NCBI GenBank assembly: GCA_947627665.1
Contig: CANQWX010000008.1
Location: forward strand, 1-64,000
Length of the DNA: 64,000 nt
DNA from: an uncultured Clostridia bacterium
GTDB lineage: Bacteria > Bacillota > Clostridia > Christensenellales > Borkfalkiaceae
Direction of reading: 5' to 3'
Part shown: positions 1-57,552 of the stretch, in pieces
Layout of the letters: each line of letters opens with the position of its first letter
Numbering within the stretch: position 1 is the stretch's first letter
Made by a program: the position numbers and the translations under genes
The notes under the pieces: generated by a model
Databases searched by the model: none
Told to the model about the DNA's origin: nothing
What the model saw: the letters and a program-made list of their open reading frames with translations, nothing else

Positions 1-172
1 AGACATTAGAAAGGCGGGGCACTCATGTCGCATTGCGCCAACGATTATCAATCGTTGGCAGAAGGCAAGGCTCCACCCTAAAAGGGACAGCAAGAAAACA
101 AACGACCTGCCATCCGAAGGAGCGGGTGGCACCGCAGGTGACAGGTGGAGGTCGACATTCCGACATTGTAAA
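1..172. repeat. Mosaic repeat cluster (palindromic-core, GGGACAGCAAG and GCGGGTGGC modules), truncated by left window edge
   Basis: catgtcgcattgcgccaacgattatcaatcgttggcagaa recurs at ~17178 and, reverse-complemented, at ~3566, ~47471; ctccaccctaaaagggacagcaag recurs at ~17225. Confidence 0.85.
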
Positions 173-173
173 A

Positions 174-210
174 AAGGCGCCGCCGATGCTTTGGGCATCG
201 GCGGCGCCTT
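174..210 (-). terminator. Intrinsic terminator downstream of spoIIR
   Basis: AAGGCGCCGCCGATGC/GCATCGGCGGCGCCTT hairpin with an A-run on + (U-run on - transcript), next to the stop at 215. Confidence 0.8.
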
Positions 211-214
211 CCCC

Positions 215-745
215 TTATTCCCCGAAAAACTTTCCGATGATCTCCGCGATCTTACTCTTATACACGATGTTCCCGTTCCCGCCCGAAAAGCACAGCGGCG
301 GATAGACCACACACCACCAGTTATCCCCCTTGCCCGAGCCAAGCTCCAGAATGAGCGCGTCGTACACTCCCGCCTCCAAGGTAACGTTTTCGTAGATCCG
401 TGTGGGGAATTCCTCTTGCCTGAGGCTCGCTTTCGCGCCGTAGGAGAACCCGCTTTCGCGCAGAACTTCCTCCGCGGCCGCCTCGATCTCCCCGAGCGAT
501 CGCCCGATCTTTTGCATCGCTTCCGCCTTGCTTTCGCACTCCGCCACAGCGGGCGTGAGAAATTCCACCACCTTATCGCGCACCTTGTACTTGACCGCCT
601 GCGCCTCCTGCGAATTGGAATCCGCGCGGATATGCACCCGCAGATAGGACGCATTTTCGGTTTCGGGCTTTTCAAAGCCCCCGCACGCGAACACGGTGAC
701 GGCGATCGCAACCGCCGATAGGAGAATGACGATACCCTTTTTCAT
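215..745 (-). CDS. spoIIR: Stage II sporulation protein R (SpoIIR)
   Basis: 176 aa, signal peptide then YLRVHIRADSNSQEAQAVKYKVRD...WWCVVYPPLCF, typical of SpoIIR. Confidence 0.85.
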   Translation of the reverse strand: MKKGIVILLSAVAIAVTVFACGGFEKPETENASYLRVHIRADSNSQEAQAVKYKVRDKVVEFLTPAVAECESKAEAMQKIGRSLGEIEAAAEEVLRESGFSYGAKASLRQEEFPTRIYENVTLEAGVYDALILELGSGKGDNWWCVVYPPLCFSGGNGNIVYKSKIAEIIGKFFGE

Positions 746-819: not shown

Positions 820-1488
820 TTAACGCTCGCCCGCAATGTGCCAGCTCTCTTCGAGAAAGTTTTCGATCTCCTCTGACCCCACGCTCCCGTCGAGGGGGAG
901 AGCGATCCAATGCTTCTTGTTCATGTGCCAGCCGCCGAAAACTTTCACGTTGTCCACCAAAAGTTCTATCTCGGCGGGGTCGGCGCACACGTCGAGAATT
1001 TCGACATTCCCCTCGCCCGCAAGCCCAAGCTTTTTGCGCGCCACCGTGAGCACCGCGCCGTACCACTTCGCGTTGTCCTTTCTGCGCCAGATCGCGTTGT
1101 CGGGAAACTTTTCCCAGAGATATTCGGGTTCGTCGCCGTACTTTTCCCGCACGCGGGCGATGAGTGTTTTCGTCACCGCGCTCTTAAAGATCTCCGCGTC
1201 GAAGCACTTTTCGGCGATATTTTGCAACACGATCTCATATTCTTCGCGTACCCGTCCGACGAATTCCCCCGCCGCGCCCTCCACGAGGTGCAGGGTGTAT
1301 GGCTCCTCCGTGAGAACGTCCAAAAGTTCGGTTTTTACGCACCCGTCTGCCGAAACGCGCACCGTCAGCACAAATTGCTCCTCAAAGACGGGCGTGCGGA
1401 ACACAAGTTCTCCGCCCTCTTCCCGAAACCCGAAGAGCCGCATTTTTTCTACGTTCGGCGTCTTGAATTTGAAAAAATCGGTCAGCAT
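820..1488 (-). CDS. MmcQ/YjbR-family DNA-binding protein
   Basis: EYLWEKFPDNAIWRRKDNAKWYGAVLTV...NKKHWIALPLDGSV. Start taken at MLTDFFKFKTPN. Confidence 0.75.
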   Translation of the reverse strand: MLTDFFKFKTPNVEKMRLFGFREEGGELVFRTPVFEEQFVLTVRVSADGCVKTELLDVLTEEPYTLHLVEGAAGEFVGRVREEYEIVLQNIAEKCFDAEIFKSAVTKTLIARVREKYGDEPEYLWEKFPDNAIWRRKDNAKWYGAVLTVARKKLGLAGEGNVEILDVCADPAEIELLVDNVKVFGGWHMNKKHWIALPLDGSVGSEEIENFLEESWHIAGER

Positions 1489-2570
1489 GTCAGATCCGTC
1501 CCCGCGATCACGCCTCCGCCGAGGCACTGCCTTTCGTCGTAGAGGACGGCGTACTGTCCCTCCGTGACCGCGCGCTGGGGTTCACGGAAGAAGATCTCCG
1601 CCCCCGTTTCCCCCTTCCGCACGACGCGCACCGCCTGCTCGCTCTGGCGGTAGCGGAACTTGGCAAAGCAGCAAAACTCCTCCGCTTGGGGGACGGACGG
1701 GATATAGTTCATGCCCTCCACGGTGCAGCGGGTGGAATAGAGCGGCGTTTCATCGCCGTGGGAAACGTAGAGGATGTTGCGCTTTAAGTCCTTTTTGACG
1801 ACGAACCATCTGCCCTCTTCCCCCTTCTTGCCGCCCAGCTCCAAGCCGCGGCGCTGGCCCAAGGTGTAGTACATCAGCCCGATGTGCTCGCCCACCTCTT
1901 CGCCCGCGAGCGTGAAGATCTTCCCGGGGCGGGCGGGCAGATATTCCTGCAAGAACTTGCGGAAGTTGCGCTCGCCGATGAAGCAGATGCCCGTACTGTC
2001 CTTCTTTTTTGCGGTGGAGAGATGTTCGCGCTCTGCGATCGCGCGCACCTCGTCCTTGGTGAGATCGGCAAGCGGGAAGAGCACGCCTTCGAGCTGGGGC
2101 TGGGTGAGCTGGTTGAGAAAGTAGGTCTGGTCCTTGCCTTGGTCCTTGGCTTTGAGGAGGCGGTGGACGCCCTCTTCGTGCGAAATGCCGCAATAGTGCC
2201 CCGTGGCGATGAAGTCGGCGCCGAGCGCCTTGGCGTACTCCCGAAAGGGGCCGAACTTGATCTCGCGGTTGCAGAGGACGTCGGGGTTGGGGGTCCTGCC
2301 CGCGCGGTACTCGGAAAGGAAGTGGGAAAAGACCCGCTCCATGTACTCCTTGGCGAAATTGACCGAATAGTAGGGAATGCCGAGGAGGGCGCAGACCCGT
2401 TTGACGTCCTCGAAGTCCTCCTCCGCGGTGCAGGCGCCGCCGGCATCGTCCTCTTCCCAATTTTTCATGAAGAGGCCCACGACCCGAAAGCCCTGCTCCT
2501 TTAAGAGCAGCGCGGCGACCGAGCTGTCCACGCCCCCGCTCATTCCGACGACGACCGTCTTTTGCGACAC
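1482..2570 (-). CDS. mnmA: tRNA-specific 2-thiouridylase MnmA
   Basis: VVVGMSGGVDSSVAALLLKEQG, GLFMKNWEEDD, NPDVLCNREIKFG, DSTGICFIGERNF. Confidence 0.96.
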   Translation of the reverse strand: MSQKTVVVGMSGGVDSSVAALLLKEQGFRVVGLFMKNWEEDDAGGACTAEEDFEDVKRVCALLGIPYYSVNFAKEYMERVFSHFLSEYRAGRTPNPDVLCNREIKFGPFREYAKALGADFIATGHYCGISHEEGVHRLLKAKDQGKDQTYFLNQLTQPQLEGVLFPLADLTKDEVRAIAEREHLSTAKKKDSTGICFIGERNFRKFLQEYLPARPGKIFTLAGEEVGEHIGLMYYTLGQRRGLELGGKKGEEGRWFVVKKDLKRNILYVSHGDETPLYSTRCTVEGMNYIPSVPQAEEFCCFAKFRYRQSEQAVRVVRKGETGAEIFFREPQRAVTEGQYAVLYDERQCLGGGVIAGTDLTC

Positions 2571-2674: not shown

Positions 2675-2751
2675 GTGCCCGTAGCTCAGTTGGATAGAGC
2701 GCAAGCCTCCGGAGCTTGAGGCCGCAGGTTCGACTCCTGTCGGACACACCA
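2675..2751 (+). tRNA. tRNA-Arg (anticodon CCG), CCA encoded
   Basis: Cloverleaf read by eye: GTGCCCG/CGGACAC acceptor (one C-A mismatch), CAAGC-CTCCGGA-GCTTG anticodon arm, GCAGG-TTCGACT-CCTGT T-arm, ACCA end. TATAAT at 2650-2655 upstream. Confidence 0.94.
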
Positions 2752-3110
2752 CGACCCCGCATGCCCATTCGGGCATGCGGGGTCGTGTATATGCAGCAGG
2801 AGGAGAACCGCAGGTTCGCCCGACGCGCTTTCTATCCTTTTGCCAAGCGGCGCACGAGCGGGCTTTGCCCGCGAAGTACTCCTGTCGGACACACCACGAC
2901 CCCGCATGCCCATTCGGGCATGCGGGGTCGTGTATATGCAAGCAGGAGGAGAACCGCAGGTTCGCCCGACGCGCTTTCTATCCTTTTGCCAAGCGGCGCA
3001 CGAGCGGGCTTTGCCCGCGAAGTACTCCTGTCGGACACACCACGACCCCGCATGCCCATTCGGGCATGCGGGGTCGTGTATATGCAAGCAGGAGGAGAAC
3101 CGTAGGTTCG
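2733..3110 (+). repeat. ~145/146-bp tandem repeat carrying tRNA-Arg 3' end plus a perfect 16-bp hairpin
   Basis: ACTCCTGTCGGACACACCACGACCCCGC... starts at 2733, 2878 and 3024. Hairpin ACGACCCCGCATGCCC-ATTC-GGGCATGCGGGGTCGT at 2751, 2896 and 3042. Confidence 0.95.
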
Positions 3111-3111
3111 C

Positions 3112-3830
3112 CCCTCGTCGCCGCACGCCCGCGTTTCACGCTTTTCTTGCGAAAAGCTCCGTTTGCGTGCGGCGGCTCCTCTTCCCGAAAAATCTTGCTC
3201 CGCAATCTTTTTCGGGAGCCTTGTTTGCTAAGCGCGGCACGAGGCGCATAGCGACGAAGTAGGAATCTCTACTCCTTGCTGTCCCTGAAAGGGAAAGTAC
3301 CCGAGCAACGCGAGGGGGAAAGGGTTCTCGGAGAACCCCTCAGGCTCGGCTAACGCCTCGCCAGCTCCCCTGCAAGGGGCGCCAAGTCGGCAAGAGGTGG
3401 AGATTTCTCGACTTCACTTCGTTCCGCTCGAAATGACGAAAAAAGAATGTGCGGCTGTGGTCGAAATGACAGATGAAGAACGCGCGGGGCACACAATACC
3501 CCCTCCAATGGAGGGGGATTCAGGGGGTGGGCATCTTGGCTGCCCCTTGAGGGGGAGCATTGCTTTCTGTCAACGATTGATAATCGTTGGCGCAATGCGA
3601 CATGAGTGCCCCGCCTTTCCAATGTCTAATTCCTTAGGCGGCACGAGCCGTTAGGCGATGTAGCGCATTTGCCGCGCGAACGGTGACCAAGCACGGGGTT
3701 CTACCCGTGTGAGAAAGCTGTTGAGCGTAGCGAAACTGAGGGGGTGTTTTTGTTTACGACACCCCTTCCGTCTTGCCGCCGTTGCGGCAATCCACCCACC
3801 CCTCAAGGGGTGGGCAAGAAAGACGCGGCC
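3112..3830. repeat. Mosaic of hairpin repeat modules between tRNA-Arg and aquaporin gene
   Basis: Contains ctgtccctgaaagggaaagtacccgagcaacgcgag, cagctcccctgcaaggggcgcc, cccctccaatggaggggg, ttcacttcgttccgctcgaaatgac and the CAACGATTGATAATCGTTG palindrome, all found elsewhere in the window. Confidence 0.85.
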
Positions 3831-56823: not shown

Positions 56824-57552
56824 ATGAAGAAAAGTTTTGTCCTCTACGAAAGCTATGGAAGGCAGCTCGAATTGCTCGACTTCGAGCAGAGCGGACGCCT
56901 CCTCAAAGCGATCTTTGCCCATGAGTACGGCGGCAAACAGCCCGCCCTCGACGCGCTTACCATGATGCTCTACCTCGAGATCGAGAGTACGCTCGACCGC
57001 GACCGCAAGCAATACGATCTCGTCTGCCAAAAGCGGGCGGACGCAGGACGGCAGGGCGGCAGACCCCGCAGCGATTTTTCTTGTTCCGAAAAAAAAGCAA
57101 ATGCTTTCAAGAATGAGAATGAGAATGAAAATGAGAATGTAGATGAGAAGGAGCGCGTTCCCTCGGCGCCCGCTGCCGTGCGGCGCGCCCGCGGGACCGA
57201 CCCCACCGAAAAGATCGCGGAGCGGGAGCGTTTTTACAGCGTCCGGAAGCAACGTGCGGAGGACGAGGCGGAGAAAAACTTAGAAAAGGCGCGCGGAGAT
57301 GTGGAATTCCGCGACGCCGAACGGGAGATGAAGGACGCAGAGATCTCTCTTGCGCGGGCAGAGGCACGGGGAGAGGACCCGTCTGCCCTTCGGAAGCTGC
57401 TCTATATGGCAAAAAAGAGGCGATGTGCGGCGATGGCACGGCTGCACTTTGCCGAGAGCGACTTTTTGCCGCGGTATGCGTGTAAAAAGTGTTCGGACAC
57501 GGGCTTTTTGCCCAACGGCCGCGGCTGCGACTGCTTTTTGCGCAGCGGGTAA
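56824..57552 (+). CDS. DUF6291-like N-terminus fused to a DnaC/DnaI-like loader N-terminal zinc region (no AAA+ domain)
   Basis: MKKSFVLYESYGRQLELLDFEQSGRLLKAIFAHEYG...; coiled-coil; C-terminal YACKKCSDTGFLPNGRGCDCFLRSG. Confidence 0.6.
   Translation: MKKSFVLYESYGRQLELLDFEQSGRLLKAIFAHEYGGKQPALDALTMMLYLEIESTLDRDRKQYDLVCQKRADAGRQGGRPRSDFSCSEKKANAFKNENENENENVDEKERVPSAPAAVRRARGTDPTEKIAERERFYSVRKQRAEDEAEKNLEKARGDVEFRDAEREMKDAEISLARAEARGEDPSALRKLLYMAKKRRCAAMARLHFAESDFLPRYACKKCSDTGFLPNGRGCDCFLRSG

Follow-up and report, generated by a model that had tools for sequence, protein, structure and literature searches.

How does a tRNA gene come to be followed by repeated copies of its own 3′ end? This question is raised by tRNA-Arg(CCG) in the window, the whole 64,000-nucleotide stretch of Clostridial DNA analyzed here. 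A preliminary description had noted this tRNA followed by a tandem array of its own 3′ end, and both ARAGORN (2675–2751) and TRF (2733–3113) bear this out. The array, the single one detected by TRF at the locus, has a period of 146, 2.6 copies, 99% matches and a score of 748. The sequence ACTCCTGTCGGACACACCA and the hairpin behind it recur as identical copies at 2733, 2878 and 3024, with the 145- and 146-bp spacing already reported; the stem, previously given as 16 bp, measures 17 bp with a 4-nt loop. Each unit starts with the terminal 19 nt of tRNA-Arg(CCG) (nt 58–76) and continues with the 17-bp hairpin after the CCA, a T-arm copy that is in antisense orientation and has diverged, the T-arm 5′ strand, and a 59-bp core. 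The antisense segment, located between the hairpin and the T-arm strand, had been overlooked. The features of the locus are listed below, where R1 is a covariance model of T-arm plus core.

1482–2570, minus strand: mnmA (tRNA 2-thiouridylase), divergent neighbor and marker of the orthologous tRNA locus (ORF; 590 relatives by tblastn)
2675–2751, plus strand: tRNA-Arg(CCG), the functional host gene (ARAGORN; Rfam RF00005, 64.8 bits)
2733–2751, plus strand: D0, the repeated 19-nt tail, tRNA nt 58–76 (repeat family D2)
2750–2787, plus strand: hairpin after CCA, unit 1, with a 17-bp stem and 4-nt loop and without a U-run (inverted repeat I5)
2796–2809, plus strand: antisense T-arm, unit 1, GCAGGAGGAGAACC, with GA in place of TC, the complement of nt 57–58 (11/15 against the antisense T-arm, at +44 of the tRNA)
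2808–2818, plus strand: T-arm 5′ strand copy, unit 1, CCGCAGGTTCG (from the sequence; GAGAACCGCAGGTTCGCCC at 2803–2821)
2819–2877, plus strand: core, unit 1, a dispersed structured repeat between T-loop nt 57/58 (R1 match 2794–2886, 92.6 bits)
2878–2896, plus strand: D1, second copy of tRNA nt 58–76 (repeat listing)
2895–2932, plus strand: hairpin, unit 2 (inverted repeat I6)
2942–2955, plus strand: antisense T-arm, unit 2 (direct repeat D1, 146-bp shift)
2954–2964, plus strand: T-arm 5′ strand copy, unit 2 (repeat listing)
2965–3023, plus strand: core, unit 2 (R1 match 2940–3032, 92.2 bits)
3024–3042, plus strand: D2, third copy of tRNA nt 58–76 (repeat listing)
3041–3078, plus strand: hairpin, unit 3 (inverted repeat I7)
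3088–3110, plus strand: antisense T-arm and T-arm 5′ strand (CCGTAGGTTCG), unit 3 (D3 family, 96%)
3111–3260, plus strand: third core, longer and divergent, ending CGACGAAGT (from the sequence; weak R1 match 3089–3271, 18 bits)

The 5′ side of the T-arm, which the preliminary description had placed in the spacers, is an exact copy in the first two units and altered in the third. The same description had suggested a duplicated T-arm and acceptor split by an insert of about 60 bp, and this proves correct. The T-arm 5′ strand and the core precede the next tail, which begins at nt 58; the 59-bp core therefore splits the T-loop of the T-arm copy exactly at nt 57/58. The units are not identical, as they measure 145 and 146 bp and one base differs in unit 3. 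The array is truncated at its 3′ side, since the longer core of unit 3 has no tRNA tail behind it. The ∼110 bp behind the last unit (3110–3220) are almost identical to the sequence following the second unit of an array in a relative (G006, L015 734–842), and this shared stretch includes the palindromic repeat CTCTTCCCGAAAAATCTTGC.

An Rfam search of the window returned the tRNA as the sole trustworthy match. Sub-threshold matches on long hairpins, to microRNAs and other families, were rejected as chance, and a likeness of core motifs to T-box and hammerhead RNAs, judged by eye, was dropped as Rfam gives it no support. Other short tandem repeats of the window are located at 44092–44181 (39 bp, 2.3 copies) and 57110–57153 (6 bp, 7.3 copies).

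Displaced tails are found at other tRNAs of the same genome. Among its 28 tRNA genes with enough flanking sequence, six are followed within 350 nt by a second version of their own 19-nt 3′ end that matches at 18–19/19: Arg(CCG), Pro(CGG), Leu(TAG), Trp(CCA), Ser(TGA) and Ser(CGA), each tail being cognate to its own tRNA. Chance is excluded for these tails, since no upstream match is better than 15/19 and none of 560 composition-matched shuffles exceeds 13/19. In the relative G065, 4 of 30 tRNAs are followed by their own displaced tail at 17/19 or better; controls for the two genomes gave no such case. The tRNA-Ser(TGA) module is almost undecayed, with tail, hairpin, an exact 16-nt antisense tail, core and an exact 19-nt tail. 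tRNA-Trp(CCA) (L043, C5:92372–92443) is likewise followed by a tandem array, the second in this genome, which has a period of 175 bp, tails at 18/19 and a core of a different, palindromic type (TTCCCGCAAAAAGAC). Another core, family B (GGGTGGAGGCG...GGCGCGCCGCCAAAGGCG), is common to the Leu(TAG), Pro(CGG) and Ser(CGA) modules (L031, L027 and L046). As these other cores fill the same slot, the core may have a history distinct from that of the tRNA scaffold. At Ser(CGA), the family B core stands ahead of an older, decayed family A remnant, and this locus is a case of serial insertion.

Among the Clostridial elements, the same layout with cognate ends is found at Arg, Ala, Ser, Glu, Thr, Leu, Pro, Trp and Val tRNAs. 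Tailed arrays or modules at L002/L015, L007, L183 and L187, some of them near contig ends, have no intact tRNA detected upstream, which suggests loss or rearrangement of the tRNA after insertion.

The preliminary description knew of no named element with this layout, which is nevertheless that of the E. coli tyrT/RtT repeats (RF00391). Earlier work has viewed RtT RNA chiefly as a small RNA associated with tRNA-Tyr in E. coli and in some relatives, and in the literature it is mostly a gammaproteobacterial family. The tyrT/tyrV locus of E. coli MG1655 contains tail, trailer, antisense T-arm, core and 19-nt tail, with four RtT matches of 133–138 bits. RtT has been described in E. coli and Pasteurellaceae (PMC4986893). 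We also found RtT arrays behind Tyr, Lys, Pro(TGG) and Ser(GGA) tRNAs in Budvicia, Pantoea and Enterobacillus, and the strong Enterobacterales arrays have cognate tails and antisense arms of the GGATGAGAACC type. In Pantoea sp. IMH and Budvicia (L264, L269, L275 and L284), RtT arrays are interleaved with duplicated tRNA-Lys genes, and arrays also occur at Pro(TGG) and Ser(GGA).

At three loci, comparison of filled and empty sites shows that a module was inserted and the old terminator displaced. At tyrT/tyrV, the sequence following the displaced tail in E. coli K-12 matches the sequence following the tRNA in the empty strain SK1144. At tRNA-Pro(CGG), positions +178..600 of this genome align at 92% with −18..404 of G065; a 196-bp insertion has therefore displaced the old tail and terminator. 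At the orthologous tRNA-Arg(CCG) locus, the terminator behind the displaced tail in one relative (L068) is the one found directly after the tRNA in the element-free L170 and L084. In all three filled loci, the tRNA ends in a fresh tail that is followed by a new hairpin or trailer, and in the tRNA-Pro and tRNA-Arg comparisons the new hairpin differs from the ancestral terminator. Displaced tails decay, to 14/19 in L068 and 15/19 in G021. All units of the window's own array share one hairpin, so that the ancestral hairpin is unreadable within the window. The ancestral terminator of this array is not identifiable, and here we therefore infer insertion. As the tail is present on both sides, an insertion between nt 57 and 58 and an insertion after the CCA with a 19-bp duplication would be indistinguishable from DNA alone; the T-loop is named as the insertion point because the core boundary falls at nt 58.

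The number of units varies at the orthologous locus. Among separately assembled relatives with an mnmA-linked tRNA-Arg(CCG), the displaced tails number four in G034, where they are spaced 139 bp apart, and one or two in others, while several relatives lack them. The comparison of copy number proposed in the preliminary description thus gives a range of 0 to 4, and the integration-derived amplification that it had considered gains support from the filled and empty sites and from independent arrays of other periods at the orthologous tRNA.

The array in the window is probably an RtT-type tRNA-tail array, in which a module was inserted at the T-loop of tRNA-Arg(CCG) and then amplified in tandem. 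In such a process, a short module consisting of a fresh 3′ end (nt 58–76), a new terminator-like hairpin, an antisense T-arm copy, a T-arm 5′ strand and a structured core would enter the T-loop between nt 57 and 58. The fresh 3′ end would rebuild the tRNA, and the original 3′ end with its terminator would be pushed downstream. The 60-odd identical bp shared by successive copies could then allow slippage or unequal exchange, which would account for the 2.6 units here and for as many as 4 in a relative; we infer amplification by homologous exchange. Against this reading, no recombinase or transposase was found linked to these modules. Site-specific cassettes, template switching or a guided process could each make the tail and antisense copy cognate at every tRNA, and each of the three agrees with part of the data.

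The array could be the attachment scar or mini-cassette of a tyrosine recombinase, with the T-loop as crossover, the fresh 3′ end as attP, the displaced tail as attR, and the core and antisense arm as a folded recombination site. It is established that phages such as Ms6 cross over in the T-loop and restore the 3′ end (PMC1762012), partial tRNA copies resulting from integration are common (PMC9897764), and the filled and empty sites with their restored 3′ ends agree with such an origin. However, the inserts between successive tails are only 100–200 bp and contain no integrase gene, and no autonomous version was seen. Each tRNA type has its cognate module although cores are shared, and an antisense T-arm is not a usual feature of att sites. 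We regard this origin as unlikely.

The antisense T-arm is a recurrent component of these modules. A match of at least 11/15 within 140 nt downstream is present at 35 of 140 tRNA loci, a set enriched for elements as many of the loci came from element searches, compared to 7 of 700 shuffles. Opposite G57-A58, where the complement would be TC, the antisense arm has GA in 14 distinct cases, which come from both the Clostridial and the Enterobacterales group, GC in 5, AA in 3 and TC in 1 (two cases that are T-arms of a following tRNA were not counted). The arm in the window, GGAGGAGAACC, likewise has the non-complementary GA opposite nt 57–58, as in RtT RNA. GA opposite GA would form a tandem G-A motif, and such a motif has been reported in RtT RNA (PMC7657543).

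Replication that passed over the hairpin-rich tRNA end forward, back and forward again could produce a direct-inverted-direct series of tails by template switching, with the core entering the spare T-loop later. The order of the segments is as expected and is perfect at tRNA-Ser(TGA), and the pre-tRNA together with the first unit is predicted to fold as a long tail/antisense hairpin (z −6.4). A near full-length copy of tRNA-Ser(GCT) in G016 (L189, G016:C31, 360–515), upstream of an intact tRNA-Ser(GCT) with a module of its own, has the core inserted in its T-loop exactly between TTCG and AATC. Against template switching, the new hairpin was not copied from the ancestral terminator, since the two differ in the filled/empty comparisons, and the change from TC to GA in the antisense arm recurs in two phyla. 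We consider this route rather unlikely. Self-priming on the tRNA's own terminator was rejected, as the new hairpin is not that terminator.

The antisense T-arm might instead be a target guide that base-pairs with the two halves of the host T-arm on either side of the insertion point, the non-complementary dinucleotide lying exactly opposite nt 57–58. RtT-type modules would then be nucleic-acid-guided mobile elements that home to tRNA T-loops, the guide being rewritten from each new tRNA. This idea is speculative, and we give it little credence at present.

The core has a distribution of its own. The R1 element is present in 34 of the 41 genomes of the genus, at up to about 90 copies each, and outside the genus in one sister genus. 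In a sample of 349 genomes of the phylum, where few candidates were scored per genome under strict filters, R1 matches were obtained in this genome only. The core is thus a high-copy dispersed repeat that is nearly confined to the genus. Among 104 core copies whose location was examined, a non-random sample picked by score, 47 are behind a tRNA and 57 are not; with more than half of these copies away from tRNAs, the core alone is not tRNA-bound. The dispersed copies off tRNAs are mostly core only, without a tRNA tail, and the SINE-like origin entertained in the preliminary description finds no positive evidence. Further dispersed copies or relatives of the core are located in the window at 47583–47666 and 3585–3670 (R1 30.8 and 23.9 bits), with no nearby tRNA. 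Core insertion at TTCG/A everywhere was considered and rejected; it suits T-loops and CATTTCG repeats, but the left flank is a different one in many of the dispersed copies. Inverted repeats flanking the non-tRNA copies are not claimed, as they were found in 9 of 45 cases against 7% in swapped flanks.

The four stems of the core covary, with 90% of cells paired and 492 double changes compared to a mean of 158 in shuffled alignments. Slid controls are 35–50% paired, a wide margin even though the alignment was fitted to the model, which favors structure.

By analogy with RtT RNA (PMC4986893), the array is a plausible source of small RNA. It could even be a functional small-RNA array, in which an RtT-like RNA made up of tail, antisense arm and core is cut from the tRNA transcript, and selection on this RNA maintains the repeats. 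RtT RNAs are released from tRNA transcripts, and Northern signals were obtained for two Pasteurellaceae RtTs (PMC4986893). The covarying core stems fit such a function, as does the folding of the isolated window element into the predicted stems, and an intrinsic-terminator search found no terminator-like site before or inside the array. The isolated unit, however, is no more stable than shuffled sequences (z −0.4), and neither the variable copy number at the same tRNA nor the decay of displaced tails suits an array kept by selection, which makes this explanation doubtful. An assembly artefact of the metagenome bin is hardly credible: the source is a draft genome of 46 contigs, but the units differ from each other, arrays with other periods are found at the orthologous tRNA in genomes that were assembled separately, and the layout is also present in the finished chromosome of E. 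coli K-12.

The relationship of the T-loop modules to RtT was examined with profile searches. The window units have no match to RF00391 in the Rfam search. The best RF00391 copy of this genome, at tRNA-Ser(TGA), scores 28.2 bits (E = 0.0017) over the whole length of the model (1–130), and no Clostridial element reaches the curated gathering score of 45 bits. A model built from Enterobacterales Tyr and Lys RtTs only (R2) detects Clostridial elements in G034 (E = 1.5e-4), L247 (7e-4) and several others (<0.1), with the window units absent at E ≤ 10; the T-arm sequence common to all tRNAs contributes to the R2 and RF00391 matches. In the reverse search, a Clostridial model on Enterobacterales loci gives E = 0.2 at best. 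Homology of the Clostridial elements with RtT is likely, judging from the shared layout and key motifs. Common descent is unproven because the window units miss RF00391, no Clostridial element attains the gathering score, and the reverse search is weak.

The array is thus of a known kind, the RtT-type tRNA-tail array; what is new here is its presence in another phylum and at many tRNA types, the dispersed core, and the direct evidence of insertion from filled and empty sites. We found no description of tRNA-tail arrays with antisense arms among the open-access papers searched. The RtT layout in an unrelated phylum, with filled and empty sites that catch insertion at one exact point of the T-loop, poses a testable question: by what process are essential tRNA genes invaded yet left intact, with the ends of the insert rewritten for each new tRNA?

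Three known systems invite comparison. Like dispersed palindromic or MITE-like repeats, the elements are short, structured and non-coding, with tens of copies per genome; they differ in that no terminal repeats or transposase source was identified and in that the tRNA-bound subset has ends specific to the host tRNA. They share with T-loop-integrating elements, such as mycobacteriophage Ms6, the insertion in the T-loop, the restored 3′ end and the displacement of the old one. In contrast to those elements, the modules are 100–200 bp long, lack an integrase gene and carry an antisense T-arm, and the same cores occur at many tRNAs with cognate ends. The closest likeness is to the RtT (tyrT/tyrV) repeats. 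In both, the 19-nt tail from nt 58 is repeated downstream of the tRNA to which it belongs, together with the T-arm 5′ strand, in tandem arrays of variable copy number; the antisense T-arm has TC changed to GA (GGATGAGAACC in E. coli), and a structured core ends right before nt 58. They differ in the mid-core sequence and in the period (146 here, 178 in RtT), and the Clostridial core is also a high-copy dispersed repeat of its genus, with many tRNA types affected.
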